From assembly GCF_000174415.1 (NCBI RefSeq), contig NZ_ACJM01000006.1, positions 62,001-126,000 on the forward strand: 64,000 bases of DNA, given 5' to 3'. The notes beneath the pieces are model-generated. The model was not told the DNA's origin and ran no database searches. It was given only the letters and a program-made list of their open reading frames with translations. This DNA comes from Dethiobacter alkaliphilus AHT 1 (GTDB lineage Bacteria; Bacillota; Dethiobacteria; Dethiobacterales; Dethiobacteraceae). Within the stretch, counting starts at the first letter, position 1; each line of letters begins with the position of its first letter. The translations under genes were made by a program, and so were the position numbers. Positions 46,814 through 63,646 of this stretch are shown here, one piece after another.

Positions 46814-48559
46814 TTAGCGGGGGTTCCAGCCACGAATGTCTTCGAAGGTATCGTCATAGTCACCAATATCGTTCCAGAAATAGTCGGTGTTCACGAAGAC
46901 ATCATTTCTTTGGCCGCTATGACAGGCCCAGCAAACAGCCATGTTGGTATGGCGCTTCAGGGCGGAGCTGGTGTTGATGTCCATGTTGTCCTCGACGTAC
47001 TCTTCGAAAGTCTTACCATTGAGCTCATATTCAGTGCCTGCTGCGCCGATAACTCTTTCGTCGGCAGTGCTCATGATCAGAGTGTCAGAACCGTGGACGA
47101 AGTGGCAGGAAACGCACATCATGTTGCCATTAACGTCAAGAATGTCCATGTTGTCGTAACCGCCGCGATAGGTGGTGTGACGGTGAGCATCGGAGTAGAT
47201 ACCGGTCAGTGTCATTGCACGGCCTTGTACCCATCTGTCACGCTCTGCCTGCCACGCTACGTCAGTATTATAGCCGATAGCGGCGTTTGTAAGCTCCATC
47301 TCGTAGTCGGTATGGCAGGCTGCGCAGAAGAAGTTATACTCCAAACCGGTCTTGTAGCGACCGTCTTCGTCTGTACCTTCAACTACCAGAACCAGTCCTA
47401 CGTCGACAGTTACAGTTGATATATCACCATCATAAATAGCTGGGTCGATGGTGCCGGCTCCAAAATCAATGTATCCGGCTACTTCAGCAGGCGTAAGCCT
47501 GTCGCCACGACCATTTCCAATAGATTCTCCGTTGGCATCATAAATCCAAAGGGAATCTATGTCGCGGCGGAAAGTCTCATAGAGCAGAGGAGCGGTTACC
47601 ATGTAGTCATCTCCCACTTCTTCAAAACCATAAGCCGGAGTAATTTCGGGATCTCTCAGCCACAGGTTACCGTTTTCATCAATCTCCAGTCCCTCAAACC
47701 AGAAACCGCCTTGCTCAGGTGTACGGTTGGAAATGTTGTTGGTGTTCCAGTGCAACAGACGGAAGCTGTAGGAACCGTGAGCAGCGTGGCAGCTGGTGCA
47801 GCTAAAGTCTGCGCTCCAGTCACCGACATCTTCCTCGTTACCAAACTTGTCAACGCCTACACGGTTACCGCCGGGGGCGGCAGCGTTGGCCACATCACCG
47901 GTTGCCAGGTGAACGGAGCCGTTCATGGCGGGGTCAACACCGAAAGTACCGGATGTTGTCCAGGTGCCGCCAAGCTGTTTACCCTCCTCATCGAAAGGAA
48001 TTGCAGAAGAAGGTTTGAATACATTCAAGAAAGCGATACCCGAGCCGTCGTGACAGGCGGCACAGGTAGCGTAGTTGTTGGCCCTAAAGAGCAGGTTGGC
48101 GCCCTGGGCGGTGTGAGTCATGTGGCAAGAAGCGCAAGAGTTGGTGTTTGTGGAAAAGCGTGTGTGGACAGCCTGGCCCGAAATGTTGCGGCGGAAGTTG
48201 TTCCACTTGCCGGTCTTTTCGCCGGAGCGGTTGGCGTTAACTACGGGGAACTCATAAGTTTCGCCATTCTGATCCACATATTCGTAGACAAAAGCTTCTT
48301 CGTCAAGCAGGCGGGGATCCAGCATATTCTGGCCATCCCATACGCCTTGGCTAAGACCATCTCCGTCTTGATTATAGTACGGCGATGTATCCTGGCTGCG
48401 GGTATATCTGGTTACAGGTTCACCATCTGGACCTTCATCATATCCGTCGTACTGCCCGCCGAAGCCTTCCAGGGAGTCGGTGGGAGCTGCCATTGCATAG
48501 CCGGCAAATACCAGCATGGCAACCATGGTCAAAACCATAATTAAACTGAACTTTTTCAT
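46814..48559 (-). CDS. Secreted hexahaem c-type cytochrome (paralogue 1)
   Basis: 581 aa with a clear signal peptide (MKKFSLIMVLTMVAMLVFAG, cleavage near AMAAP). Six sites: CASCH, CAACH, CTSCH, CAACH, CVSCH, CWACH; those at 1, 3 and 5 are CXXCHxxH. A central region of about 150 residues without haem (residues 300-450) separates sites 3 and 4. Close paralogue of the protein at 58.5 kb over its whole length. Extracellular electron carriage is likely; six-haem size and paired sites would also suit a filament-forming cytochrome, which is speculation. Preceded by a shared leader RNA. Confidence 0.88.
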   Translation of the reverse strand: MKKFSLIMVLTMVAMLVFAGYAMAAPTDSLEGFGGQYDGYDEGPDGEPVTRYTRSQDTSPYYNQDGDGLSQGVWDGQNMLDPRLLDEEAFVYEYVDQNGETYEFPVVNANRSGEKTGKWNNFRRNISGQAVHTRFSTNTNSCASCHMTHTAQGANLLFRANNYATCAACHDGSGIAFLNVFKPSSAIPFDEEGKQLGGTWTTSGTFGVDPAMNGSVHLATGDVANAAAPGGNRVGVDKFGNEEDVGDWSADFSCTSCHAAHGSYSFRLLHWNTNNISNRTPEQGGFWFEGLEIDENGNLWLRDPEITPAYGFEEVGDDYMVTAPLLYETFRRDIDSLWIYDANGESIGNGRGDRLTPAEVAGYIDFGAGTIDPAIYDGDISTVTVDVGLVLVVEGTDEDGRYKTGLEYNFFCAACHTDYEMELTNAAIGYNTDVAWQAERDRWVQGRAMTLTGIYSDAHRHTTYRGGYDNMDILDVNGNMMCVSCHFVHGSDTLIMSTADERVIGAAGTEYELNGKTFEEYVEDNMDINTSSALKRHTNMAVCWACHSGQRNDVFVNTDYFWNDIGDYDDTFEDIRGWNPR

Positions 48560-48674
48560 AAACCTTCCTCCTTTAATAGGGGTTGACTTTGTGATCTCGC
48601 ATATACGCATTGCATGCACCTCCTTTCTCGCGCAGGTTATGGAGATATAGCAGCGGTTTCCCGCGTTGCTACCA
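48560..48674 (-). promoter_or_regulatory. Conserved leader of hexahaem paralogue 1
   Basis: Reading leftward: GCGG-GAAA-CCGC hairpin, GCTATATCTCC, ACCTGCGCGAG, the perfect ribosome site AAAGGAGGTG followed by short ATG frames, then TTAAAGGAGGAAGGTTT before the gene's ATG. Nearly base-for-base shared with 60187-60300. Two ribosome sites in tandem suggest a translated leader or a structural switch. Confidence 0.6.
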
Positions 48675-48707
48675 ATAGAGGTTAACGAAACAGTCAACAT
48701 TACTGTA

Positions 48708-48757
48708 TCTGTAAACGGCCACATAGGCACCGATGGATTCGGTGAAGAGAATGCGAA
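48708..48757 (-). pseudogene. Remnant of an NHL-repeat gene 3' end
   Basis: Minus-strand reading VRILFTESIGAYVAVYR matches the C-terminus of the intact NHL protein at 60.3 kb (GRMLITDTIGARVAVYR), 10 of 17 residues, and it stands at the same place relative to the shared leader. The stop codon after AVYR is lost. The rest of the gene is absent. Confidence 0.6.
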
Positions 48758-50102: not shown

Positions 50103-51203
50103 TTATTTCGTAACTTCCGCCAACCCTTCCTCTGCTAACACTTCATTAAGAAGGTTGTAATTCAGCATTTGCTCAAAGCTCTTATCCAAATGCCCGGCGG
50201 CAGACATATACTGGTACACATCTTCAAAAAATGCAATATCCGGATCATAAGTAGGCAAAGCATTTTGGTAGGTGCGGACAAAATGCTCCAGCGGATAAGA
50301 AGGATAATCTTCAGCTTCCAGCACTTCCTCAAAATAATAAGTATAGCGTTCCATTGATTTTTGCCCCAATACTTCTGCACCCGCCTGTTCTGCTGCCAAA
50401 GTAGCCCGCACATGAGCCCGTAGCATAGCTTTTACCACTTGCGGGTAGCTTTCAATGTAGTCCCTTCGCGCCAAAAGCATCACCTGGGGAACATATTCTC
50501 CAAACATATTTCCTTCATTTAGCCTAATAATCTCCTTTGCTTCCGGTACACGGTCCAGCACGTTGTCTAAGTTGGCAGCCCTGGTGGTAATGGCATCATA
50601 CTCTCCCGCTTCAAAGTTTTCATTAAAGGTATGTATCCAGTCAGTATGTTCAACCTTTACCGTACCACCAATAAACTCCGTACTAAGGCCCACCGTTTCC
50701 AACTGCCTGTTTAGCATATACTCTTCAACATAGCTGTAATTAACAATTCCCACCGTCATACCGTCCAGCTCAACCAGACTGTCTACAAACGGCCCGCCCA
50801 CAAGCACATTACCATCTTTGTTTAAAGCAGAGCCGGCTATAATCCTAAAGTTATCACTGCCGCCAAACTGGCTGGTTTCAGAAATATAAGAAGACGAATT
50901 GTTGGCCGGAATATAGATAAAATCCACTTCCAAATTGTCCATCAATGGCCCGGTGCCGTCACGGCCCCTTGTCTGCACCCACTCAACCGTCACACCCAGC
51001 TCTCCCAACAGCTCCTCAAACAGTCCCGTCTCTTCCTCCATTAAAGCCTGAGGCGAAGCTAAAGGCATGGCAATATAAGCTATCCGCACCTCTGTCAAAT
51101 CTTCCAATACAGTACCGTCCTCTGCCCCCGCACCACTTCCGCCACAACCTGCCAAACTAACACCCAGCAGCACAACAACCAAGAATGCAAACCATTTCCT
51201 CAT
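50103..51203 (-). CDS. Solute-binding lipoprotein, SsuA/NMT1-like (ABC transporter type)
   Basis: 366 aa from MRKWFAFLVVVLLGVSLAGC, a lipoprotein signal with lipobox LAGC. The rest resembles periplasmic-binding proteins for nitrate, sulfonate or thiamine precursors: EVRIAYIAMPLASPQALMEE, DFIYIPANNSSS, LDGMTVGIVNYSYVEEYML, VMLLARRDYIESYPQVVKAM. No permease or ATPase gene is near, so it is either an orphan or works as a sensor. Placed between the XRE region and the decahaem gene. Confidence 0.8.
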   Translation of the reverse strand: MRKWFAFLVVVLLGVSLAGCGGSGAGAEDGTVLEDLTEVRIAYIAMPLASPQALMEEETGLFEELLGELGVTVEWVQTRGRDGTGPLMDNLEVDFIYIPANNSSSYISETSQFGGSDNFRIIAGSALNKDGNVLVGGPFVDSLVELDGMTVGIVNYSYVEEYMLNRQLETVGLSTEFIGGTVKVEHTDWIHTFNENFEAGEYDAITTRAANLDNVLDRVPEAKEIIRLNEGNMFGEYVPQVMLLARRDYIESYPQVVKAMLRAHVRATLAAEQAGAEVLGQKSMERYTYYFEEVLEAEDYPSYPLEHFVRTYQNALPTYDPDIAFFEDVYQYMSAAGHLDKSFEQMLNYNLLNEVLAEEGLAEVTK

Positions 51204-51254
51204 CCACCTGTCCCCCTCTCTTTTGTGTAAATAATGGTCTACCGGCAAAAAAAG

Positions 51255-51280
51255 GGCAGGCCGGTGATATCCGGCCTGCC
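51255..51280 (-). terminator. Terminator of the Ig-decahaem gene
   Basis: GGCAGGCCGG-loop-CCGGCCTGCC followed on the minus strand by seven T; loop contains GATATC as in the orphan terminator at 46.5 kb. Confidence 0.9.
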
Positions 51281-51298: not shown

Positions 51299-54200
51299 TT
51301 AATTGTAGACTGTCATAATCCTGTAACCCTGCCCTGTGCCACTGGTTGGTGACATGCCCTGGTAGAACATAATCAGGCAATGCCTCCGGCCTTTCTTAAA
51401 CATCAGGCTAAACGTACCGTCTTCTCCCGGCACTTCCTCAATTAAAGTCCAGCCATTCTCAGCCATCTCCGTCTTGTAGAACTGGTTAACAGCACTACTG
51501 CTTAACTGTGCCGCCGTACTGTATAACACCAAGGCCATCTCATTATTCAATTCATCAGGCAGCCAACCTTCACCAACCCAGACACTCACCGGATCCGGCT
51601 TAGACCAGCTCACCCCACCATACAGCGCAATATCATCCCGCACCACACTCATCCTCACACCATGCGGTTCTTCATGACAACCAAAGCAGGTCCGGTTCTG
51701 GAACTGAATGGCCCTCTGCACTCTGGGCTCCGCACTATCATGGCATTCCTTGCAACCTTCTCTCTCATGGTACACTTTTTCCGTCATCATGTTGCTGCCA
51801 TGGCAGTCTCTGCATTGTCCACCCAAGTTCACTTCATGCATCTCCGCATGGCCCGAACCGCCGGCATCAATGCCATGACAGGCCCCACAATCCAGATTCT
51901 TCGTATCAATGGCAGTCTGCACATCATCTCTGGTACTCTCATGACACGTCACACAGGTTATGGGCCCACCGTTTTCATCACTTCGCCCATCCCGGGCATG
52001 CTCCCTGGTCAGCGACATGGCATGACACTCGGCGCAATTATCTGCATCAGCCCTGTGAAGCTGAGGAATATCGTGATTGTTAAGCGGCTCATATACCCTG
52101 TTGGTAATTTTACGCTGTGTACCTGCTCCGGGCTGGTGGCAAATGATACAATCCCAGTTTTCCCTGTTAGTAGTAACCCGTAGCGGTACAGAATCACTGA
52201 AACTCCGTGGCGAATATGTTTTATCCGGGTTATAACCGTGCGGAGGCCAATTCGGCGCATCGTACAACTCATGGTCAGGATTATGGCAATCATCACAGAC
52301 ATCAAGATTGGTCACATAGTTATGGCAGGAATAGCAGTCCACCCTGCCGTCATGGCCATCAAAGAGGAAACCGCGATGCACTGCTTCATAATGCTCCGGC
52401 CTGTTATTCTGGGTTTCATGGCAGGCAGTACAGTTACTGATATTGGAGTCAGCCATATCCGGCCAGGTATTGATATTGAAGGACCAAGTTCTTTCGGCAA
52501 CCAAGCCAATACCGTCGGTGGCCGTCAACGTCACTGTATAATTCATCTCATTTGCCAACGGCTCAGCCGGCGTATAAGTCAACTTACCACTAACACTGTC
52601 ATATTCATAATCCTCAATAACCTCTCCATTTAGCTCAAACACAATGGAAGCCAACATATCATTATCTTTAACCACAGCAGAGATAGTGGGCTGCATATCC
52701 TCTAAACCATACTTAAACGGCGATACATTGGAAATAGTGGGCGGTGCCTCAACTTCAAATGTCCAGGTCCAAGTCCTGTTATTGCCAAACTTATCCTCGG
52801 CATAAAGCTCTAAGGTATGCTGTCCGTCACCCACAAAGTCCTCAAAAGTTACAGTAGCTTCTTTTCTGGAAGTTACTATATATTTATCTGTGCAGGTATC
52901 CCAAAACCCTCTGAACAAAAAGTCAATATCCAAAGCCTCACCGTTTACCTTTAACGTCACATTGTCTTTCATATCAACGGGATGATTAAGCCTGGCATAA
53001 AACTTCAAAATACCGTCTGTAATCTTCATCCCATCAGTGAAGAAACGCAAGTCACTTAAAGTGGGAGGCGAAGCCACAGTAACAAAACTCCACTCAGCGG
53101 TACTGCTGTTGCCCGCCATATCACTTACTTCCAGCTTAATCTGGTAATTACCATCGGGAAAATCACCACTATAGGCTACCTTCCCAGTACCCTCATCAAC
53201 ACTATGCTCCATAAGTTCCCCGTTTCTATATAGCCGTACACTATCCCAGTCCACAGCACTGTTATCGGTAACAACAGCGGACACCTCAGAAATGCCCCCC
53301 ACCTCAATGCCGTCTTCCGGATACAAATCACTGATCTTTGGAGCTTCCGCCACTGTAAACGACCAGCTTTCCTCCAACACATTACCGACCACATCGGCAA
53401 TACTTATCTCAAAGATATGCTCTCCATCCTGCAGCCCCTCTGCCTGAAAACTAATGGTACCGGACCGGTAATCATAGCCCAAAAATCCGCAGGAATCATG
53501 CAGCTCAGTGGTTCTAAATACAGCATCCACAACTTCGCCATTTAACTTAGCCGTTGCCGATTCTCCATCCAAATGGTCAAAGGTATCCGTTACCAATACA
53601 GATATTAGGGGAGACGCTGTGTCAGTAGTACCTCCCCTGGCCGGAGTCCATTCACTGGCCTTTGGCGCCGCATCCACAATAAAACTCCAGCTGGTGGCCT
53701 TATACTCGCCTTCAGCAGTATCAAACACCTCTACCCGGACAAAATTCTCACCTTCCGGCAGCCTCTCTTGCGGCGTATAGGAAATTTCCAACACATTGCC
53801 GCTTAAAGGAGCCACAGTGGCCACAACCTCATCATCATTAACAAACATCCGCACGTTATCCGCATCTTTTGTCCCATCTGCAGCCCGCACAGAAATCCGT
53901 GGCTGAGCATCCATTCTTGTACTACCGCTTGAAGGCAGCTGATTTATAAAACGCACTTGCGTCTCCACCGTAAAGGACCACTGCTCGGTAAAAGTAGTAC
54001 CGGCCCTGTCCATCACACTAATCTCCACATCATATGTACCATTCTCTAAGCCAAAGGTACTAAAAGATGCGGTCCCCTGCGTATAGTCTTCCACCACATA
54101 CCAGGAACCACAGCTATCACTTTCCCAACGCCCTTTATGCAGAAACTCCACAGCAACCGGTTCACCGTTTAACGTCCCCACAGCAGAACTTTCCTCAAGC

Positions 54201-54406
54201 CGACTGCTACCGCCAGTAATGTACACCGATACCCTGGGGTTAGAGATATTAACCGTAGCACCGTCAGCGGGGGTATGCTCACTAAAAGTACCCCCCGCCT
54301 CAGCAATAGCCAGCATGGCTACAACAACCACAAAAACCACAAGCCCAACGATCAACCGCCGTACTTGTGTACCCAAAGCCCTGCACCCCCAATGCAGGTT
54401 TTCCAT
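51299..54406 (-). CDS. Giant surface protein: six Ig-like domains fused to a decahaem cytochrome
   Basis: 1035 aa from MENLHWGCRALGTQ; membrane/signal helix at about 17-37. Six Ig-like or cadherin-like domains of 100-110 residues each end in a W-x-F strand (EQWSFTV, TSWSFIV, ESWSFTV, AEWSFVT, WTWTFEV, RTWSFNI). From about residue 660 come ten haem sites: CTACH, CYSCH, CDDCH, CIICH, CAECH, CVTCH, CGACH, CRDCH, CKECH, CFGCH. The last 110 residues have no haem and match the end of the protein at 55.1 kb. The beta-domain stalk could place the haems beyond the cell wall. I know of no named family with this exact order. Confidence 0.87.
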   Translation of the reverse strand: MENLHWGCRALGTQVRRLIVGLVVFVVVVAMLAIAEAGGTFSEHTPADGATVNISNPRVSVYITGGSSRLEESSAVGTLNGEPVAVEFLHKGRWESDSCGSWYVVEDYTQGTASFSTFGLENGTYDVEISVMDRAGTTFTEQWSFTVETQVRFINQLPSSGSTRMDAQPRISVRAADGTKDADNVRMFVNDDEVVATVAPLSGNVLEISYTPQERLPEGENFVRVEVFDTAEGEYKATSWSFIVDAAPKASEWTPARGGTTDTASPLISVLVTDTFDHLDGESATAKLNGEVVDAVFRTTELHDSCGFLGYDYRSGTISFQAEGLQDGEHIFEISIADVVGNVLEESWSFTVAEAPKISDLYPEDGIEVGGISEVSAVVTDNSAVDWDSVRLYRNGELMEHSVDEGTGKVAYSGDFPDGNYQIKLEVSDMAGNSSTAEWSFVTVASPPTLSDLRFFTDGMKITDGILKFYARLNHPVDMKDNVTLKVNGEALDIDFLFRGFWDTCTDKYIVTSRKEATVTFEDFVGDGQHTLELYAEDKFGNNRTWTWTFEVEAPPTISNVSPFKYGLEDMQPTISAVVKDNDMLASIVFELNGEVIEDYEYDSVSGKLTYTPAEPLANEMNYTVTLTATDGIGLVAERTWSFNINTWPDMADSNISNCTACHETQNNRPEHYEAVHRGFLFDGHDGRVDCYSCHNYVTNLDVCDDCHNPDHELYDAPNWPPHGYNPDKTYSPRSFSDSVPLRVTTNRENWDCIICHQPGAGTQRKITNRVYEPLNNHDIPQLHRADADNCAECHAMSLTREHARDGRSDENGGPITCVTCHESTRDDVQTAIDTKNLDCGACHGIDAGGSGHAEMHEVNLGGQCRDCHGSNMMTEKVYHEREGCKECHDSAEPRVQRAIQFQNRTCFGCHEEPHGVRMSVVRDDIALYGGVSWSKPDPVSVWVGEGWLPDELNNEMALVLYSTAAQLSSSAVNQFYKTEMAENGWTLIEEVPGEDGTFSLMFKKGRRHCLIMFYQGMSPTSGTGQGYRIMTVYN

Positions 54407-54503
54407 ATCCATATCCCCTTTCACCGTAAATGGGGCTCATATATATAGTGTCATCTAATTTATATGCTGCACGGACAAACATGTTTCTCTTAAAACCCAA
54501 AAA

Positions 54504-54523
54504 TGCCCGGCAATCGCCGGGCA
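54504..54523 (-). terminator. Terminator of the small lipoprotein gene
   Basis: TGCCCGGC-AATC-GCCGGGCA followed on the minus strand by TTTTTGGG. Confidence 0.88.
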
Positions 54524-54610
54524 CTGCTGTGTTTTTCATGTTGTATTTTCTGTGCAAAGCGAACCATAAGTACCGCAAGTACCGCAGAAATAATCCTGCT
54601 TAAAAACCTT

Positions 54611-54952
54611 CTACAGATCCAAATCCAGCGACTCTGTCCGCCACAGTCCGTTTCCTTCCTGATAAACAATGATATTAAAATTAGTACTGGCTCTCTGTCC
54701 GCCGGCAGTATGTGCTACCCTGCCGGAAAGCTCTAAGGTGCCGTCATCATGCTCGATAATATTCACAGTCTCAAACCCGGGAAATACGGCGGAATTAGGT
54801 GAAGGAAGGCGGGACTGAACTTCTCCCCTGGCATACTGGAATGCCGCTACCTCCAGTTTTTTATCCTGTTCTGCCTGACTGTTCCCGCACCCCACAGCCA
54901 CAATCGCCACAACAAAAACCAGTAAGATAAACCAAGTTGTTCTCTGTCGCAT
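54611..54952 (-). CDS. Small lipoprotein of unknown function
   Basis: 113 aa with a lipoprotein signal (MRQRTTWFILLVFVVAIVAV then Gly-Cys; lipobox VAVGC, Cys22). The mature part, about 90 residues, ends in beta-strand-like sequence (TNFNIIVYQEGNGLWRTESL). No haem motif or named family. It sits between the two Ig-haem genes, with its own terminator and a TATAAT box near 54984 with no good -35. Confidence 0.65.
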   Translation of the reverse strand: MRQRTTWFILLVFVVAIVAVGCGNSQAEQDKKLEVAAFQYARGEVQSRLPSPNSAVFPGFETVNIIEHDDGTLELSGRVAHTAGGQRASTNFNIIVYQEGNGLWRTESLDLDL

Positions 54953-55120
54953 GCCTGTTGCCCCTCCATCGTGAAAGATATAACGTTCCCATTATATATT
55001 CGCGTTTCAAGGCAAAAGTCCTGCTACAAAAGTACTAATGGGCAACAAAAAATTCCAACTTTAACGCTACTCAGGTCTTAGTTAAAGCATGGGGCAGCAT
55101 ACGCTGCCCCATGCCAAGCT

Positions 55121-57340
55121 TTAATGATATGCCACCTTCAACCTGGACCCGGCGGGATTACTTCCTTCGCCTCCGGGTACATCTCCGCTGTACAACCAAA
55201 CTGTACAATAGCGGTTTCGCTTCTTAAATTCCAGGGTAAAGCCGTCGCCATCAAGGGAACTATCCAGCAGCGTCCACCCCGCATCTTCCATCTGGCTCTG
55301 ATACAGGCCATAGAGACCGGACGCATCCAGTGTGGCCCGGCTGCTAAACAAGACCCGCCCCGCAGAGTTATCCAGCTGTGCCGGCAACCAGGCTTCTCCA
55401 CTGAAAATCTCTGCGTTCTGCGGTGTACCCCAACTCACATTACCGTACAGGAACACATCTTCCGGCACGGTGGCCATATATACCCCGTGCGGAGTTTCAT
55501 GGCAGTCAAAGCAGCTGCCCTTATTGTACAGGATAGCTTCCTGATACACTTGATTATCGCTGGCATGACAGCCACTGCAGTTATCGTTATGCTCCACCTT
55601 TTCCGTCATCATATCATAGCCGTGACATTCTCCGCACACCTCTCCATACGTCACTTCATGCGGCGGATGCACCTGACCCGCCGCTTCCCCGGTATGGCAG
55701 GCAAAGCAGTCGCGCCGGCCTTCGGCGATGGCATCCATAATAGTCTCCGATTCATGGGCGTGACAAGTCCCACAGGTATAGTCCTTACGGTTATGCTCCC
55801 TGGTCAGCACCTTGGAATGGCAGCCCCGGCAGCCAATCAGTTCTTCGGGATTTACCAGATGATCCTCGGTCATGTCATGGGGATAACTGCCAAAAGTATA
55901 GCCGTAATGTCCCCCCGGGAAATAAACACTATCCGGCGAATGACAGTCGAAGCAGGTACTGTGCCAATCATCAATATCGTAACCGTGACAATCACCGCAC
56001 AGCCTACCCTTTATCTCCGCGTTATCGTGGCAGTGGACACAACCGGATACGTCACCGGTCCCCGGCATATCACCAAAGACATCCACCAGGTAGTACCACT
56101 CTTTAGTCACACTCTGCCCTGCAGAGTTCTCCGCCGTAAACTCCAGAGTCACCTCTTCATCCAACATCCACTCATTCTGCGGCTGATATGTTACCCTGTA
56201 CTTATTGTCGCCCAGCTCAGTCCACTCAGTACCGACCACGCTGCCCTTAGTCTTCAGCGTAACACTGTCCTGAGTCAGCGCTTCACTGGAAAACACATCA
56301 ATGGTAATAATCGGCCTCTTACTGGTAATAGCAGTATTGGGAGCAGGATGAATCTCCAGAATCTTCGGCAGTGAGGCAATGGTAAACTCCCAGGTTAAGA
56401 CCCCTTCATTGCCCGCCGCATCATTGGCCTCCACCCGTACCTCCACAGTGCCATGGGGCAAAGAGGTAATCGGATAGGTGAGAGTTGCTTTCTGCTTATC
56501 GTATTTCTGAGTCCAGAGGTCATAATCAAATTCCAGCGTAGCCGCAACCACTTCGCCATTAATAAACATCTTAATCGAATCTTCAACCAATACACTTTGC
56601 TCATCGACAATCCGTACCGAAACCTTGGGAGGCCCGTTTTCCAGCACGGCACCGTCGGCAGGCACTACATTGCTAAAAGCCGGAGGTGTGTTATCGGTGG
56701 TAAAGGACCAGTTTCTTGTGGTGGAAAGGCCGGAATTATCGGTAGCCGTCAATGTTACAGTATTCTCCCCGTCCGGCAAATCCCCAGGCTCATACGAGAC
56801 ATAACCGGTTTCGGCATCAAAGTCCGCATCCACTGCCTCTCCATTTACTTTTAGCACCACACTTTCCACCGTACCGTTGGGGTCCACAGCCTTAGCCCCA
56901 ATCAAATCCACCGTCCGGTGAGCTGACTTGTCTTTAGGCTGCAGTTCGCTGATTACCGGCGGCACCGCCACCGTAAACTGCCAGGCCCTTTTCCCCACAT
57001 CGCCATTTACGTCTTCCAGCGAAAACTCCACATTATACATACCGTCGGCCAAATTCTTGGCATTGTATTTAATTTCACCGTCTTTTGGCGTAAACCACTC
57101 CGTAAAGGTAGCATTATAGGTTTCACCGTTAATGGTAATCTGTGCAGAGTTTGCCACAATGTTGGCATCCGCCGTCACAGAGGCGCGAATGGTGGTATCC
57201 GGAGATCTCACCGTCGCTCCGTTTCTGGGACTTAGTTCACTGTAATTGAAACCTCCGCCAGCCAGGGCCAACATGGCACCGGATAAAACAAGCAGAATCA
57301 ATAAAAGACCAACTAAGGGATACCTGGTTTCGGCCTTCAT
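55121..57340 (-). CDS. Giant surface protein: four Ig-like domains fused to a nonahaem cytochrome
   Basis: 739 aa; N-terminal signal/anchor helix at about 8-27. Four Ig-like domains follow (W-x-F strands KRAWQFTV, RNWSFTT, LTWEFTI, KEWYYLV). Nine haem sites from about residue 435: CVHCH, CGDCH, CFDCH, CRGCH, CGTCH, CFACH, CGECH, CSGCH, CFDCH. The C-terminal domain without haem (LYGNVSWGTP, EAWLPAQLDNSAGRVLFSS, MEDAGWTLLDSSL, LEFKKRNRYC) is shared with the 51.3-kb protein, as are the blocks LTREHxR and HGxxMMTEKVxH. The pair are paralogues with different stalk lengths. Confidence 0.87.
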   Translation of the reverse strand: MKAETRYPLVGLLLILLVLSGAMLALAGGGFNYSELSPRNGATVRSPDTTIRASVTADANIVANSAQITINGETYNATFTEWFTPKDGEIKYNAKNLADGMYNVEFSLEDVNGDVGKRAWQFTVAVPPVISELQPKDKSAHRTVDLIGAKAVDPNGTVESVVLKVNGEAVDADFDAETGYVSYEPGDLPDGENTVTLTATDNSGLSTTRNWSFTTDNTPPAFSNVVPADGAVLENGPPKVSVRIVDEQSVLVEDSIKMFINGEVVAATLEFDYDLWTQKYDKQKATLTYPITSLPHGTVEVRVEANDAAGNEGVLTWEFTIASLPKILEIHPAPNTAITSKRPIITIDVFSSEALTQDSVTLKTKGSVVGTEWTELGDNKYRVTYQPQNEWMLDEEVTLEFTAENSAGQSVTKEWYYLVDVFGDMPGTGDVSGCVHCHDNAEIKGRLCGDCHGYDIDDWHSTCFDCHSPDSVYFPGGHYGYTFGSYPHDMTEDHLVNPEELIGCRGCHSKVLTREHNRKDYTCGTCHAHESETIMDAIAEGRRDCFACHTGEAAGQVHPPHEVTYGEVCGECHGYDMMTEKVEHNDNCSGCHASDNQVYQEAILYNKGSCFDCHETPHGVYMATVPEDVFLYGNVSWGTPQNAEIFSGEAWLPAQLDNSAGRVLFSSRATLDASGLYGLYQSQMEDAGWTLLDSSLDGDGFTLEFKKRNRYCTVWLYSGDVPGGEGSNPAGSRLKVAYH

Positions 57341-58533: not shown

Positions 58534-60186
58534 TTAGTCTCTAGCTTCCCACCAGCCGCGAGTACTGTCAAAAGTATCGTCATAAGTGTCAACATCATTC
58601 CAGAAGTAGTCGGTGTTTACGAAGACATCGTTCTTGGTGCCGCTATGGCAGCCCCAGCAAACGGCCATGTTGGTGTGACGCTTAATGGCGGAGCTGGTGT
58701 TGATGTCCTTGTTGGCATTAACAACTGCATTGAATTCTTCAGTACCAGGTTCACCGGCTTCGAGTGCCATGGTACCGATAACTCTTTCGTCGGCAGTCTT
58801 CATGATCAGAGCGTCTGTGCCGTGTACATAGTGGCAGGATACGCACATCATGTTGCCGCCAGTGTCTTGAATTGTCATTTGATCAGCAGCTGTTCTGTGG
58901 GTGGTGTGACGGTGAGCATCGGAGTAGATACCGGTCAGGACGCCTGCACCGCCGCCAGCGGGTTCGCCATCGATAACGGCGCCGGCTGTCAGCTTACGCT
59001 CGTAGTCGGTATGGCAGGCTGCGCAGTAGAAGTTGTACTCAAGACCGGTCTTGTAGTAACCGTCTTCGTCTTGGCCTTCAACAACCAGGGATAAACCAGC
59101 GTTTACTACGGTACCAGCTTCATATTCACCTGTAACGGTGGCTGCACCAAAGTCAACAGCAGTTAAATCAATGTCACGACCAGTTTCGCCATTGATGTAG
59201 ATGGAGTTTACTGCACCCCTTGAAGTTGTGTATACCAGAGGAGCGGTTACCATGTAGTTGTCGCCCACTTTTTCGAAACCGTAAACGGGAGCAACTTCGG
59301 GGTCGTTCAACCAAAGGTTACCGTTTGCATCTGTTACCAGACCTTCAAACCAGAAACCACCTTCATCAGGTGTGCGCATGGAGATGTTGTTGGTGTTCCA
59401 GTGCAAGAGACGGAAGCTGTAGGAACCGTGGGGAGCGTGACAGCTGGTGCAGCTGAAGTCTGCGCTCCAGTCGCCGGTGTCTTCTTCAGTACCGTCTTTT
59501 AAGTGACCTACACGGTTACCACCGGGGGCGGCAGCAATGGCCACATCACCGGTTGCCAGGTGAACGGAGCCGTTCATGGCGGGGTTAACACCGAAAGTAC
59601 CGGAGGTATGGTGGCCACCGCCGAGGTCCCACTCGTCCGTACCGGACAACTGAATGATTGCTTCGGACGGACGGAATACGTTCAGCATTGGAATACCGGA
59701 GCCATCGTGACAGGCGGCGCAGGTAGCGTAGTTGTTGGCCCGGAACAGCAGGTTAGCGCCCTGGGCGGTGTGAGTCATGTGGCAAGAAGCGCAAGAGTTG
59801 GTGTTTGTGGCAAAGCGGGTGTGAACAGCCTGGCCGGAAACGCGGCGGCGGAAGTCACTCCACTTACCGGTCTTTTCGCCGGAGCGGTTGGCGTTAACTA
59901 CGGCGAAGGATTCACCGGTAGGAACGCCTTCTTCATCGTAGAGTTCATATTCCCAGGCTTCTTCGTCGAGAAGACGGGGATCCATCATCATGTAGCCATC
60001 ATACTCAGCAATGCTGGAGCCGTAAACAGGCTCACCATCTACTTCACTGTAGCTGTAGTAGGGAGAAGTATTCTGGACGCCATCTTCAAAGCCTTCCAGA
60101 GTGTCGGACGGAGCTGCCATGGCATAGCCGGCAAATACCAGCATGGCCACCATGGTCAGAACCATGATTAAACTAAACTTTTTCAT
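58534..60186 (-). CDS. Secreted hexahaem c-type cytochrome (paralogue 2)
   Basis: 550 aa, signal peptide MKKFSLIMVLTMVAMLVFAG identical to paralogue 1. Haem sites CASCH, CAACH, CTSCH, CAACH, CVSCH, CWGCH at matching positions; blocks such as VHTRFATNTNSCASCHMTHT and YSFRLLHWNTNNIS are almost unchanged, while the haem-free central part and an internal linker differ in length. Start taken at the ATG after AAAGGAGGAAGATTT; an upstream ATG after the ribosome site AAAGGAGGTG is in frame and would add 19 residues. Last haem gene of the 12-haem-TPR-NHL-hexahaem operon. Confidence 0.88.
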   Translation of the reverse strand: MKKFSLIMVLTMVAMLVFAGYAMAAPSDTLEGFEDGVQNTSPYYSYSEVDGEPVYGSSIAEYDGYMMMDPRLLDEEAWEYELYDEEGVPTGESFAVVNANRSGEKTGKWSDFRRRVSGQAVHTRFATNTNSCASCHMTHTAQGANLLFRANNYATCAACHDGSGIPMLNVFRPSEAIIQLSGTDEWDLGGGHHTSGTFGVNPAMNGSVHLATGDVAIAAAPGGNRVGHLKDGTEEDTGDWSADFSCTSCHAPHGSYSFRLLHWNTNNISMRTPDEGGFWFEGLVTDANGNLWLNDPEVAPVYGFEKVGDNYMVTAPLVYTTSRGAVNSIYINGETGRDIDLTAVDFGAATVTGEYEAGTVVNAGLSLVVEGQDEDGYYKTGLEYNFYCAACHTDYERKLTAGAVIDGEPAGGGAGVLTGIYSDAHRHTTHRTAADQMTIQDTGGNMMCVSCHYVHGTDALIMKTADERVIGTMALEAGEPGTEEFNAVVNANKDINTSSAIKRHTNMAVCWGCHSGTKNDVFVNTDYFWNDVDTYDDTFDSTRGWWEARD

Positions 60187-60300
60187 AAATCTTCCTCCTT
60201 TAATGGGGGTTGTCTTTGTGATCTCGCATGTACGCATTCGCATGCACCTCCTTTCTCGCGCAGGTTACGGAGATATAGCAGCGGTTTCCCGCTTAGCTAC
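60187..60300 (-). promoter_or_regulatory. Conserved leader of hexahaem paralogue 2
   Basis: Same elements as 48560-48674: AGCGG-GAAA-CCGCT hairpin, GCTATATCTCC, ACCTGCGCGAG, AAAGGAGGTG and a second ribosome site before the gene. Here the first ATG after AAAGGAGGTG is in frame with the cytochrome; in the other copy one base is missing, which puts it out of frame. The leader sits between the NHL gene and the cytochrome. Confidence 0.6.
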
Positions 60301-62082: not shown

Positions 62083-63165
62083 CTAATTTTCGCGATGACA
62101 ACTTGTGCAGTTGTTCGCCGAATGGCACATATAACAAGATTGGGTCGGCCTGCTGGAGGCCGTTAAATCGGGATAATGTTTATTCTGAAAGCCCGGTGTG
62201 TGCGGGCTGGGATGACATTGTCCGCAGCTGGACCGGGTCACTCTGATTTCTCCGGTATCGCGGTTATCGTGGCAGACCATACAGCCTTCCTGACCGCTGC
62301 CACTGGTGGCGTAATCACCGTGGCGCACGGTCCAGCGTGTTTCGTGGCTGGGCGGGGTTTGGCGGTGACAGTCTACGCAGAAGGTGTTTTCCCGGGCGTA
62401 GCGTTTGATGGAGGTATTTTCGTCCACCTCCATTAACCTTGTTCCGGCGTATCCATGGCAGATGTTGCAGCCTTCCAGGTCGTTTCTTACTGCGGCTCCG
62501 TGGTTCCAGTTGAAGTCGGCAAACTGGTGGTAGCCGGGTAAGTTGAGGCCGGTGTGGCAGGCGGCGCACTCTACGGAGGCGCGGCGGCGGAAGTGGCACT
62601 GCATGCAGTCGTCCATGGGTGCTGCTGTGTTTTCCCAGGCCATGGCGCGGGCGGCCCTTTCTTCGTCCCAGGTGCTGCCGGCGCGGGTTTCGCCGCGGCG
62701 GGCGATGCCGCCGTGGGCCACCGACTTGTGGCAGGCTTCACAACTGACTCTGGAATCGTAGTGCAGTTGGTGGGGGATGTAGATATCTCCCATGGAGGAA
62801 ACCTCGCGGTCGGTGTTGTGGCAGATAAGGCACTGGTCATCCTCTACCCTGGTGAAGAGGCGGATGGGATTCATGTAAGTATTGGTTGCCTCTCTGTAGG
62901 CGTAGCGGGCCAGGTCTTGGAACAGTTCGATGGTGCCGTCCAGTCCCTCTTCCACGTGGCATTTGGCGCAGCCCGTGTTTTCGTGGGATGAGGCCTGCCA
63001 GGTGAGCTTCTGGGGCTGCATGGCGTGGCACTGGGTGCAGAAGGCGCCGGAGTTTTGATCGATATCTGTGTAGAAAACCAAGGTTGTGAGAAACAGCAGT
63101 AGAATGAAAGTGAAGAACTTGTATTTTCTTTTTCTTTTTACCCAGTAGGCGTTGTTATAGGACAT
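62083..63165 (-). CDS. Membrane-anchored dodecahaem cytochrome c, NapC/NrfH-like N-terminus
   Basis: 360 aa from MSYNNAYWVKRKRKYKFF (ribosome site AGGGGAG). A basic N-terminus and single helix (about 16-35) lead straight to the first haem, FCTQCHAMQPQKLTWQASSH, as in quinol-oxidising NapC/NrfH proteins; CAKCH follows. Twelve sites in all: CTQCH, CAKCH, CLICH, CEACH, CMQCH, CAACH, CNICH, CVDCH, CMVCH, CGQCH, CYMCH, CTSCH. Probably takes electrons from the menaquinone pool and passes them outward. First gene of module 2. Haem spacing is dense, about 30 residues per site. Confidence 0.88.
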   Translation of the reverse strand: MSYNNAYWVKRKRKYKFFTFILLLFLTTLVFYTDIDQNSGAFCTQCHAMQPQKLTWQASSHENTGCAKCHVEEGLDGTIELFQDLARYAYREATNTYMNPIRLFTRVEDDQCLICHNTDREVSSMGDIYIPHQLHYDSRVSCEACHKSVAHGGIARRGETRAGSTWDEERAARAMAWENTAAPMDDCMQCHFRRRASVECAACHTGLNLPGYHQFADFNWNHGAAVRNDLEGCNICHGYAGTRLMEVDENTSIKRYARENTFCVDCHRQTPPSHETRWTVRHGDYATSGSGQEGCMVCHDNRDTGEIRVTRSSCGQCHPSPHTPGFQNKHYPDLTASSRPTQSCYMCHSANNCTSCHREN

Positions 63166-63646
63166 ATGACATTCTCCCCTGATGAATGTACCACTTCTCC
63201 GTCTTGTCGAATATTCCTGCCACCTTGTACCCTTCTTCACAAAATTTTTATTGAGAGGATGCTATGTTTTAGAATTGGGGGTAAAAGCAACGCCGATAAA
63301 GAATGGTAATAATTTCAATTTCCATTATGAGACTTTGTCTAAATTGCGTCAAGAGGAAACGTGTCGATGAAGTATATTTAATTTTAATAACTAATATTAC
63401 TACTATTTTTAGGACCTCAGGACTAAGTTTCGACACATTTTGTAGGATATTTGTACTATTCGTGACAATTATAACTATTCGCCACTTGGGACAGAACTCC
63501 TGCTGAAAAGAAAGTATTTCTGAAATTTCATAATTGGCCAAAACCCTTTAGTTGCGGGGATTGTAGGCTCTTGGGACAATTGCCCTTTTTTGCAGGCTTG
63601 TACAATTGGTATGAGGTACATATGCCCTGGCACTGGTACATGTGTA
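63166..63646. other. Gene-free AT-rich region between two cytochrome genes
   Basis: No gene. Contains a TATAAT box (minus strand, near 63471) with a weak -35 and the motif ATTTGTACTA (63449-63458) shared with other cytochrome upstream regions. No clear terminator is seen after the cytochrome that ends at 63647. Confidence 0.5.

Follow-up and report, generated by a model that had tools for sequence, protein, structure and literature searches.

How electrons are carried across the thick wall of a Gram-positive bacterium is an open question, and the published Thermincola model relies on four proteins other than those considered here. Two genes of the iron and sulfur reducer Dethiobacter alkaliphilus AHT 1, at 51299 to 57340 of a 64,000-nucleotide stretch (the window; contig NZ_ACJM01000006.1, positions 62,001 to 126,000), bear on this question. 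They encode two proteins, here called A and B, in which a stalk of immunoglobulin-like (Ig-like) domains precedes a multihaem head and a haem-free C-terminal domain of about 115 residues, the tail. What could such an arrangement serve? We would answer, with roughly even confidence, that A and B are extracytoplasmic electron-transfer heads carried on interchangeable spacers, the tail probably being a docking domain beside the exit haem.

Architecture of A, B and their relatives

The coordinates, reading frames, six and four Ig-like domains and ten and nine haems given by a first-pass annotation of this DNA were borne out by the count of CxxCH haem-binding motifs, by a repeat profile built from ten hand-cut repeats of A and B, and by the Pfam model Big_13. 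CxxCH occurs at ten places in A (residues 665-913) and at nine in B (434-610), and all six repeats of A and all four of B lie on the N-terminal side of the first haem. Big_13 scores 88.8 bits in A (E = 3.7e-25) and 40.8 bits in B (E = 3.2e-10) against a cut-off of 27, and by this curated model both qualify as Bacterial Ig-like (Big) repeat proteins. With their CxxCH motifs and export signal they also qualify as multihaem c-type cytochromes; the Pfam model Cytochrom_c3_2 reaches 40 bits in A (cut-off 25), and Cytochrome_C7 reaches 34.7 bits in A and 24.1 in B, the latter just under its cut-off of 24.8. At the N-terminus of both proteins a hydrophobic stretch precedes a signal peptidase site of AxA type, and these predicted signal peptides support their being exported. 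The features are listed below, with Ig-like domains placed by Pfam and the repeat profile, haem heads by Pfam and motif count, and signal peptides by a simple hydropathy and AxA scan.

51299..54424, minus strand: protein A, 1041 residues, DealDRAFT_1439 by gene counting
54296..54424, minus strand: A, predicted signal peptide, about residues 1-43, site AEA|GG
53966..54295, minus strand: A, Ig-like domain 1
53675..53962, minus strand: A, Ig-like domain 2
53351..53671, minus strand: A, Ig-like domain 3
53078..53347, minus strand: A, Ig-like domain 4
52751..53071, minus strand: A, Ig-like domain 5
52472..52747, minus strand: A, Ig-like domain 6
51674..52432, minus strand: A, haem head, ten CxxCH, residues 665-917
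51302..51649, minus strand: A, haem-free C-terminal tail domain, residues 926-1041 (profile and AlphaFold2 model)
55121..57340, minus strand: protein B, 739 residues, DealDRAFT_1441 by gene counting
57260..57340, minus strand: B, predicted signal peptide, about residues 1-27, site ALA|GG
56969..57256, minus strand: B, Ig-like domain 1
56696..56965, minus strand: B, Ig-like domain 2
56378..56689, minus strand: B, Ig-like domain 3
56084..56374, minus strand: B, Ig-like domain 4
55499..56041, minus strand: B, haem head, nine CxxCH, residues 434-614
55124..55474, minus strand: B, haem-free C-terminal tail domain, residues 623-739 (profile)

The tails of A and B are 43% identical across 114 residues and recur in relatives, in agreement with the shared haem-free domain proposed at first pass. 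A search with the whole of B finds matches in two of 59 genomes, its own and one relative (G002), and a profile of six tails, run on a sample of 398 genomes of the phylum, matches 18 at E 0.01. A domain that recurs in this way, within the family and across the phylum at large, is no product of chance. In four of the 18 (G077, G111, G335 and G420) the matches are weak and fall on haem-free proteins only, which leaves 14 genomes with matches on multihaem proteins. Most of the matching genomes come from one family, that of G068, which we infer to hold Thermincola; eight of its nine genomes match, at three to eight places each. A scan of named genomes gave 13 tail loci, in Thermincola metagenome-assembled genomes (MAGs), in Firmicutes/Bacillota MAGs and, twice, in a MAG named Actinomycetota (Kmv33). 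These last two loci contradict a restriction of the tail to one phylum, a MAG binning error being possible; among 198 genomes sampled around that MAG (G442), ten match, G442 and G490 strongly and the other eight weakly.

The genome of D. alkaliphilus itself holds three tail copies. Thus A and B are paralogues as the first-pass annotation had it, but they are not the only two: the third copy is on a 491-residue protein (L025:8912-10387, contig C4) that has nine haems, lacks an Ig stalk and carries, within its haem region, a haem-free insert of at most about 135 residues.

The arrangement of head and tail was followed across 53 distinct tails scoring at least 40 bits, fragments and weaker matches being dropped (L082, at 35.9 bits with one CxxCH in its open reading frame (ORF); L083, at 33.8 bits; the haem-free L043-L046; and L053, with an open 3′ end). 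The tail is on a protein with 8-14 CxxCH in 52 of the 53, ten being the number in 34 of these, and the lone exception, L068, has no haem in a 110-residue ORF within a 226-residue open frame. The spacing is narrow: from the histidine of the last haem to the start of the tail there are 9-13 residues in all 52 haem proteins, and the tail ends no more than one residue from the C-terminus in 50 of the 53. What precedes the 52 heads varies, with 35 Big-type stalks, seven FlgD-type and ten heads that have none, and with zero to ten Ig domains by the repeat profile. The seven FlgD-type cases are heads that follow a long N-terminal part; in the three of them given to Pfam, this part is read as Ig domains of FlgD type. 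A single genome may carry a whole range of lengths: stalks of 10, 9, 5, 2, 0 and 0 Ig domains and one FlgD-type in G068, and of 8, 6, 6, 4, 2, 1 and 0 and one FlgD-type in G238. Counts for L026:1-1500, L027, L049 and L058, which are cut on their 5′ side, are minima, as are perhaps those of other 5′-open rows.

On a tree of the heads, built from 52 rows that span the last five haems and the tail and with 28 of its 49 inner branches starred, the stalk type has changed at least five times and the exact Ig count at least 23 times, the latter figure being inflated by 5′-cut rows. A groups with a seven-Ig protein of G002 (100/97), and the two remaining G002 proteins group with B (99/90). That relatives in other iron reducers bear the same head on different stalks suggests, from these sequence comparisons, exchangeable modules by which electrons are moved through a thick wall or beyond it. 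A fixed haem-tail unit with a variable spacer, repeated as it is in the Thermincola family, points to components of the wall or surface that have been overlooked, and it allows a simple comparison of stalk length with position.

Fold and kinship of the tail

The conserved blocks seen at first pass held for the most part. Among 52 tails, SWxxP keeps its W and its P in 50 each, and GW keeps G in 48 and W in all 52, while in the FKKxxRxC block K is kept in 45 and R in 44; the cysteine of that block, however, falls under the 75% listing threshold and is ruled out as a family feature. The tail of A (51299-51649) and that of its G002 orthologue depart from commonly kept residues, such as an R present in 47 of 52, and by its sequence the A tail may have changed partner or lost function. 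The tail in any case provides a profile with which such proteins can be found and separated from other multihaem proteins.

That the end domain is new, as the first reading had it, stands insofar as searches of A and B matched no Pfam or NCBIfam model on the tail. Pfam at E 10 gave nothing on the first tail and, among six members, three chance-level families in one member each, with the PsbP and DcrB models unmatched; the chain sequences of the PDB, which we take to include OcwA (6I5B), gave no tail match. Structure prediction, one of the checks proposed at first pass, gave a confident alpha/beta model of the A tail (AlphaFold2, 17 aligned rows; predicted local distance difference test (pLDDT) 89.4, predicted template modelling score (pTM) 0.83), with a core of one strand, a helix and four strands. 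Foldseek against the PDB returned nothing at E 0.001, its best row being unrelated (E 0.022) and its top rows partial matches to pyrrolysyl-tRNA synthetase. The lack of a match in the Pfam, NCBIfam, PDB and Foldseek lists does not make the tail a new fold. The nearest structures by VIA-align are PA1624 (Z 9.2, 3.4 A over 110 residues) and DcrB (Z 8.8, 2.7 A over 87), at 6-7% identity and with scores that rise little over the tool background of 7-8, followed at lower scores by Eag chaperones (Z 6.7-7.6) and by PsbP, Mog1, LpqN, MTC28 and LppA (Z 4.6-5.9). The model thus offers a fold of DcrB/Mog1-PsbP type as a lead, not as proof.

Kinship at the level of sequence is found with a haem-free extracytoplasmic domain of the pattern VPxDIPxY ... 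FYxxxLxxxGW ... K..R. HHalign aligns it with the tail over 85 columns (97.9%, E 3.1e-13), and hmmsearch with the 52-tail profile finds haem-free loci at 6.5e-8 and weaker (filters off, small ORF set). In the reverse direction, the haem-free profile finds the B tail at 2.5e-5, and one haem-free domain used alone picks up a cytochrome tail at 3.7e-4; these tests are not fully independent, the haem-free members having first been found by the tail profile. The search with and without haems that had been proposed as a check places the tail on 8-14 haem proteins as described above and its haem-free relatives on lipoproteins and membrane proteins. These alignments place the tail, as a haem-linked branch, within a broader family of extracytoplasmic domains that carry no haem, and this qualifies its novelty. 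Exclusive occurrence on haem proteins is ruled out by the same searches. The columns common to the two branches are Y, GW and K, in the helix and in the strands that follow it; an invariant S and a W-x-x-P...GE...P segment are found in cytochrome tails only, and this segment may form the contact with the haem head or with its partner. Among the haem-free forms, L043, L044 and L112-L115, from other genomes of the phylum, are multi-pass membrane proteins of an unnamed family with the domain at their C-terminus.

Possible working and its alternatives

Altogether, these observations lead to a model in which A and B act as exported multihaem electron-transfer proteins whose working part is the conserved C-terminal unit of haem head and tail. 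The Ig-like repeats would serve as interchangeable rigid spacers that set the distance of the head from its attachment. Electrons would pass from haem to haem and probably leave at the last one, which lies some ten residues ahead of the tail, while the tail, an alpha/beta domain drawn from a haem-free extracytoplasmic family, would dock a redox partner or a neighbouring cytochrome beside that haem. Several observations weigh against this model. Ten of the 52 relatives are stalk-less, and the stalk is therefore dispensable for some members. Among the Pfam rows of A and B there is no wall or membrane anchor domain (SLH, choline-type and the like; for LPXTG no dedicated tool was used), and the stalk may thus set no fixed height. 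The tail of A carries R, A, A and M where most tails keep P, P, R and E. For the tail, the analysis turned up neither a partner nor a binding surface, nor any datum on docking. Finally, an AlphaFold2 model of head and tail together (A residues 655-1041, 12 rows, without haems) is poor outside the tail (pLDDT 56.8, pTM 0.38), so that the haem-tail interface is unseen.

The tail might instead be a cap that folds or stabilizes the haem head, or a homo-oligomer contact of it, with no outside partner. The constant spacing from the head, with no other order among the 53 tails, fits such a role, as does the position of the cytochrome-specific W/P/GE/P motif on the N-terminal side of the tail, adjoining the head as a packing surface would. 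Yet the haem-free relatives occur on lipoproteins and membrane proteins that have no haem head, which argues for a fold stable alone, and the tail models well by itself; we regard this role as unlikely, if worth keeping in view. An anchoring role, in which the tail or the Ig domains would hold the protein to wall polymers or a surface layer (S-layer) with its other end outward, would supply what the seemingly cleaved N-terminus calls for: with no anchor domain recognised, something else must retain the protein. But tails are found equally on stalk-less proteins of 8-14 haems and match no known wall-binding family in Pfam (E 10) or among PDB sequences, and we hold this, too, to be rather improbable.

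The stalk invites a further alternative. An Ig domain measures about 4 nm, which gives estimates of about 24 nm for six domains, 16 nm for four and 40 nm for ten. If the signal peptide stayed uncut and served as membrane anchor, the Ig stalk could span the wall and heads on unequal stalks could form a ladder; stalks of up to ten Ig domains would match a Gram-positive wall of 20-80 nm (PMC7911101, available in part), and several members have a long positively charged stretch ahead of the hydrophobic core. Against this, an AxA-type site follows the core in 42 of the 43 ORFs not flagged open, one of those 42 (L058) having no real signal core, and an uncut signal seems quite unlikely. A more general form of the idea is a length-coded cytochrome ladder or reach set: a single cell would hold one kind of head (8-14 haems with a docking tail) on rigid stalks that run from none to ten Ig domains and draw on two unrelated Ig types, so that heads stand at several heights within and beyond the wall and hand electrons from one to the next. 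Since the N-terminus appears cleaved, a membrane-based ladder needs another anchor, and the Pfam rows of A and B hold none; the ladder is a speculative and doubtful extension, but if true it would take the place of the porin-cytochrome systems and nanowires by which other iron reducers solve the problem.

The least probable alternative, to which we give little credence, is that A is a decahaem of MtoA/MtrA type engaged in Fe(II) oxidation or periplasmic shuttling, in line with its published annotation, its extra domains being secondary. DealDRAFT_1439 and 1457 are reported to be 22-27% identical to MtoA, but in the same paper the proteins of D. alkaliphilus form deep branches of their own (PMC10376724, available in part). 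At E 0.1 neither A nor B matches the DmsE/MtrA model TIGR03508 of NCBIfam (cut-off 192.2 bits), whereas two of their neighbours do, under the cut-off. The head profile A7 matches chains of many kinds, namely UndA (1e-13), Hmc (2.3e-13), the c-type cytochrome 3ov0, MtrF (1e-12), nitrite reductases and C7-type proteins, its scores probably being dominated by the CxxCH repeats. The OmcA/MtrC-type model PF22113 (cut-off 30 bits) stays under its cut-off in A (25.7) and B (9.4), and exceeds it in the relatives L092 (52.4 bits) and L025 (31.4 bits).

Gene cluster and comparison with known systems

The docking-head model for A and B can be set beside published expression data through the locus tags. 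The available sections of PMC10376724 describe a cluster of multihaem proteins numbered DealDRAFT_14xx, in which 1449 is CymA-like, 1457 is MtoA-like with haem domains only, and 1439 bears Ig domains. Taking A as 1439, counting makes the gene at 54611 1440, B 1441, the multihaem protein at 58534 1443 and the NapC-like protein at 62083 1446; further on, L029:1660-2814 (NapC/CymA-like by eye) becomes 1449, L029:3778-5130 (multihaem) 1451 and L029:10374-11453 (multihaem only) 1457. The count skipped a 90-residue ORF at 63269-63541, and it leaves no clear candidate for 1437. Because the published descriptions of 1449, 1457 and 1439 agree with the counted genes, the count fits, and we take A to be DealDRAFT_1439 almost certainly and, by the same count, B to be 1441. 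For 1439 the paper describes C-terminal Ig domains; the sequence of A has them at the N-terminus. On ferrihydrite, the paper reports a significant rise of 1435, 1439 and 1441, and on thiosulfate one of 1443 and 1451. With the counterparts of A and B by this count among those raised on ferrihydrite, a surface electron-transfer role for the two is plausible.

A and B are flanked, at 46814-48730 and 58534-60243, by two multihaem proteins that are paralogues of each other and nearly identical in their signal regions. Counting makes the first DealDRAFT_1435, reported as raised on ferrihydrite, and the second 1443, reported as raised on thiosulfate, so this paralogue pair may be divided between two acceptors. 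A single-sequence search of the PDB gave no match for either at E 0.01, and homology to solved nanowire cytochromes is thus without support. Downstream in the cluster, L029:6833-8485 (550 residues, DealDRAFT_1454 by counting) has 21 CxxCH in regular repeats and is likened to an octahaem reductase in PMC10376724, as available; L029:3204-3740 has one CxxCH followed by a long acidic repeat of NGEEPGDGDTA type. Between A and B lies a small lipoprotein-like gene of 113 residues (54611-54952, VGCGN) without a Pfam match, and beyond A, past a strong terminator-like hairpin, an NMT1/SsuA-like protein with weak likeness to substrate-binding proteins (50103-51248). A hairpin scan of the region gave 26 sites against 13.0 +/- 3.8 in shuffles, two of which flank A:

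51255..51280, minus strand: terminator-like hairpin directly 3′ of A
54502..54525, minus strand: terminator-like hairpin between the 54611-54952 gene and A

Parts of this architecture are already in print: Ig-bearing multihaem proteins in D. alkaliphilus (PMC10376724) and Geobacter (PMC10989804), and S-layer fusions in the ANME archaea (PMC9012536), all three papers being available in part. In the sections and papers so available, our literature search found no description of the tail, of its fixed place after the last haem or of a graded stalk series. The closest likeness is that of DealDRAFT_1439 and its Z-1002 homologues, called MtoA-like in PMC10376724, which combine Ig-like domains with a multihaem head as A does; the available sections mention neither the tail nor the Ig domains of 1441. 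Small alpha/beta domains of the PA1624, DcrB and Mog1/PsbP/LpqN type may resemble the tail in overall fold and have no Pfam match to it at sequence level. The Geobacter proteins OmcZ/Gmet_0930 and OmcN/Gmet_0581 are extracellular multihaems with an Ig-like part, as A and B would be, but the account of them in PMC10989804, as far as available, describes domains of Ig-like fold and neither a variable multi-Ig stalk nor a tail. The ANME proteins MHC-A, MHC-B and MHC-C likewise fuse multihaems to non-haem domains located in the envelope to pass electrons through a non-membrane outer layer. These domains are, however, of S-layer, peptidase-like or pectin-lyase-like type, with 20-80 haems and, in types A and B, C-terminal membrane helices (PMC9012536), where the family of A and B has Ig repeats, 8-14 haems and a C-terminal alpha/beta domain, with no helix found. 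As for the thick wall itself, the Thermincola proteins TherJR_1117, 0333, 1122 and 2595 (ImdcA, PdcA, CwcA and OcwA) carry 10, 10, 6 and 9 haems, with no Ig stalk mentioned in the available sections of PMC7911101, unlike A and B; the likeness lies in a Gram-positive multihaem chain across a thick wall, to which A and B may also belong.

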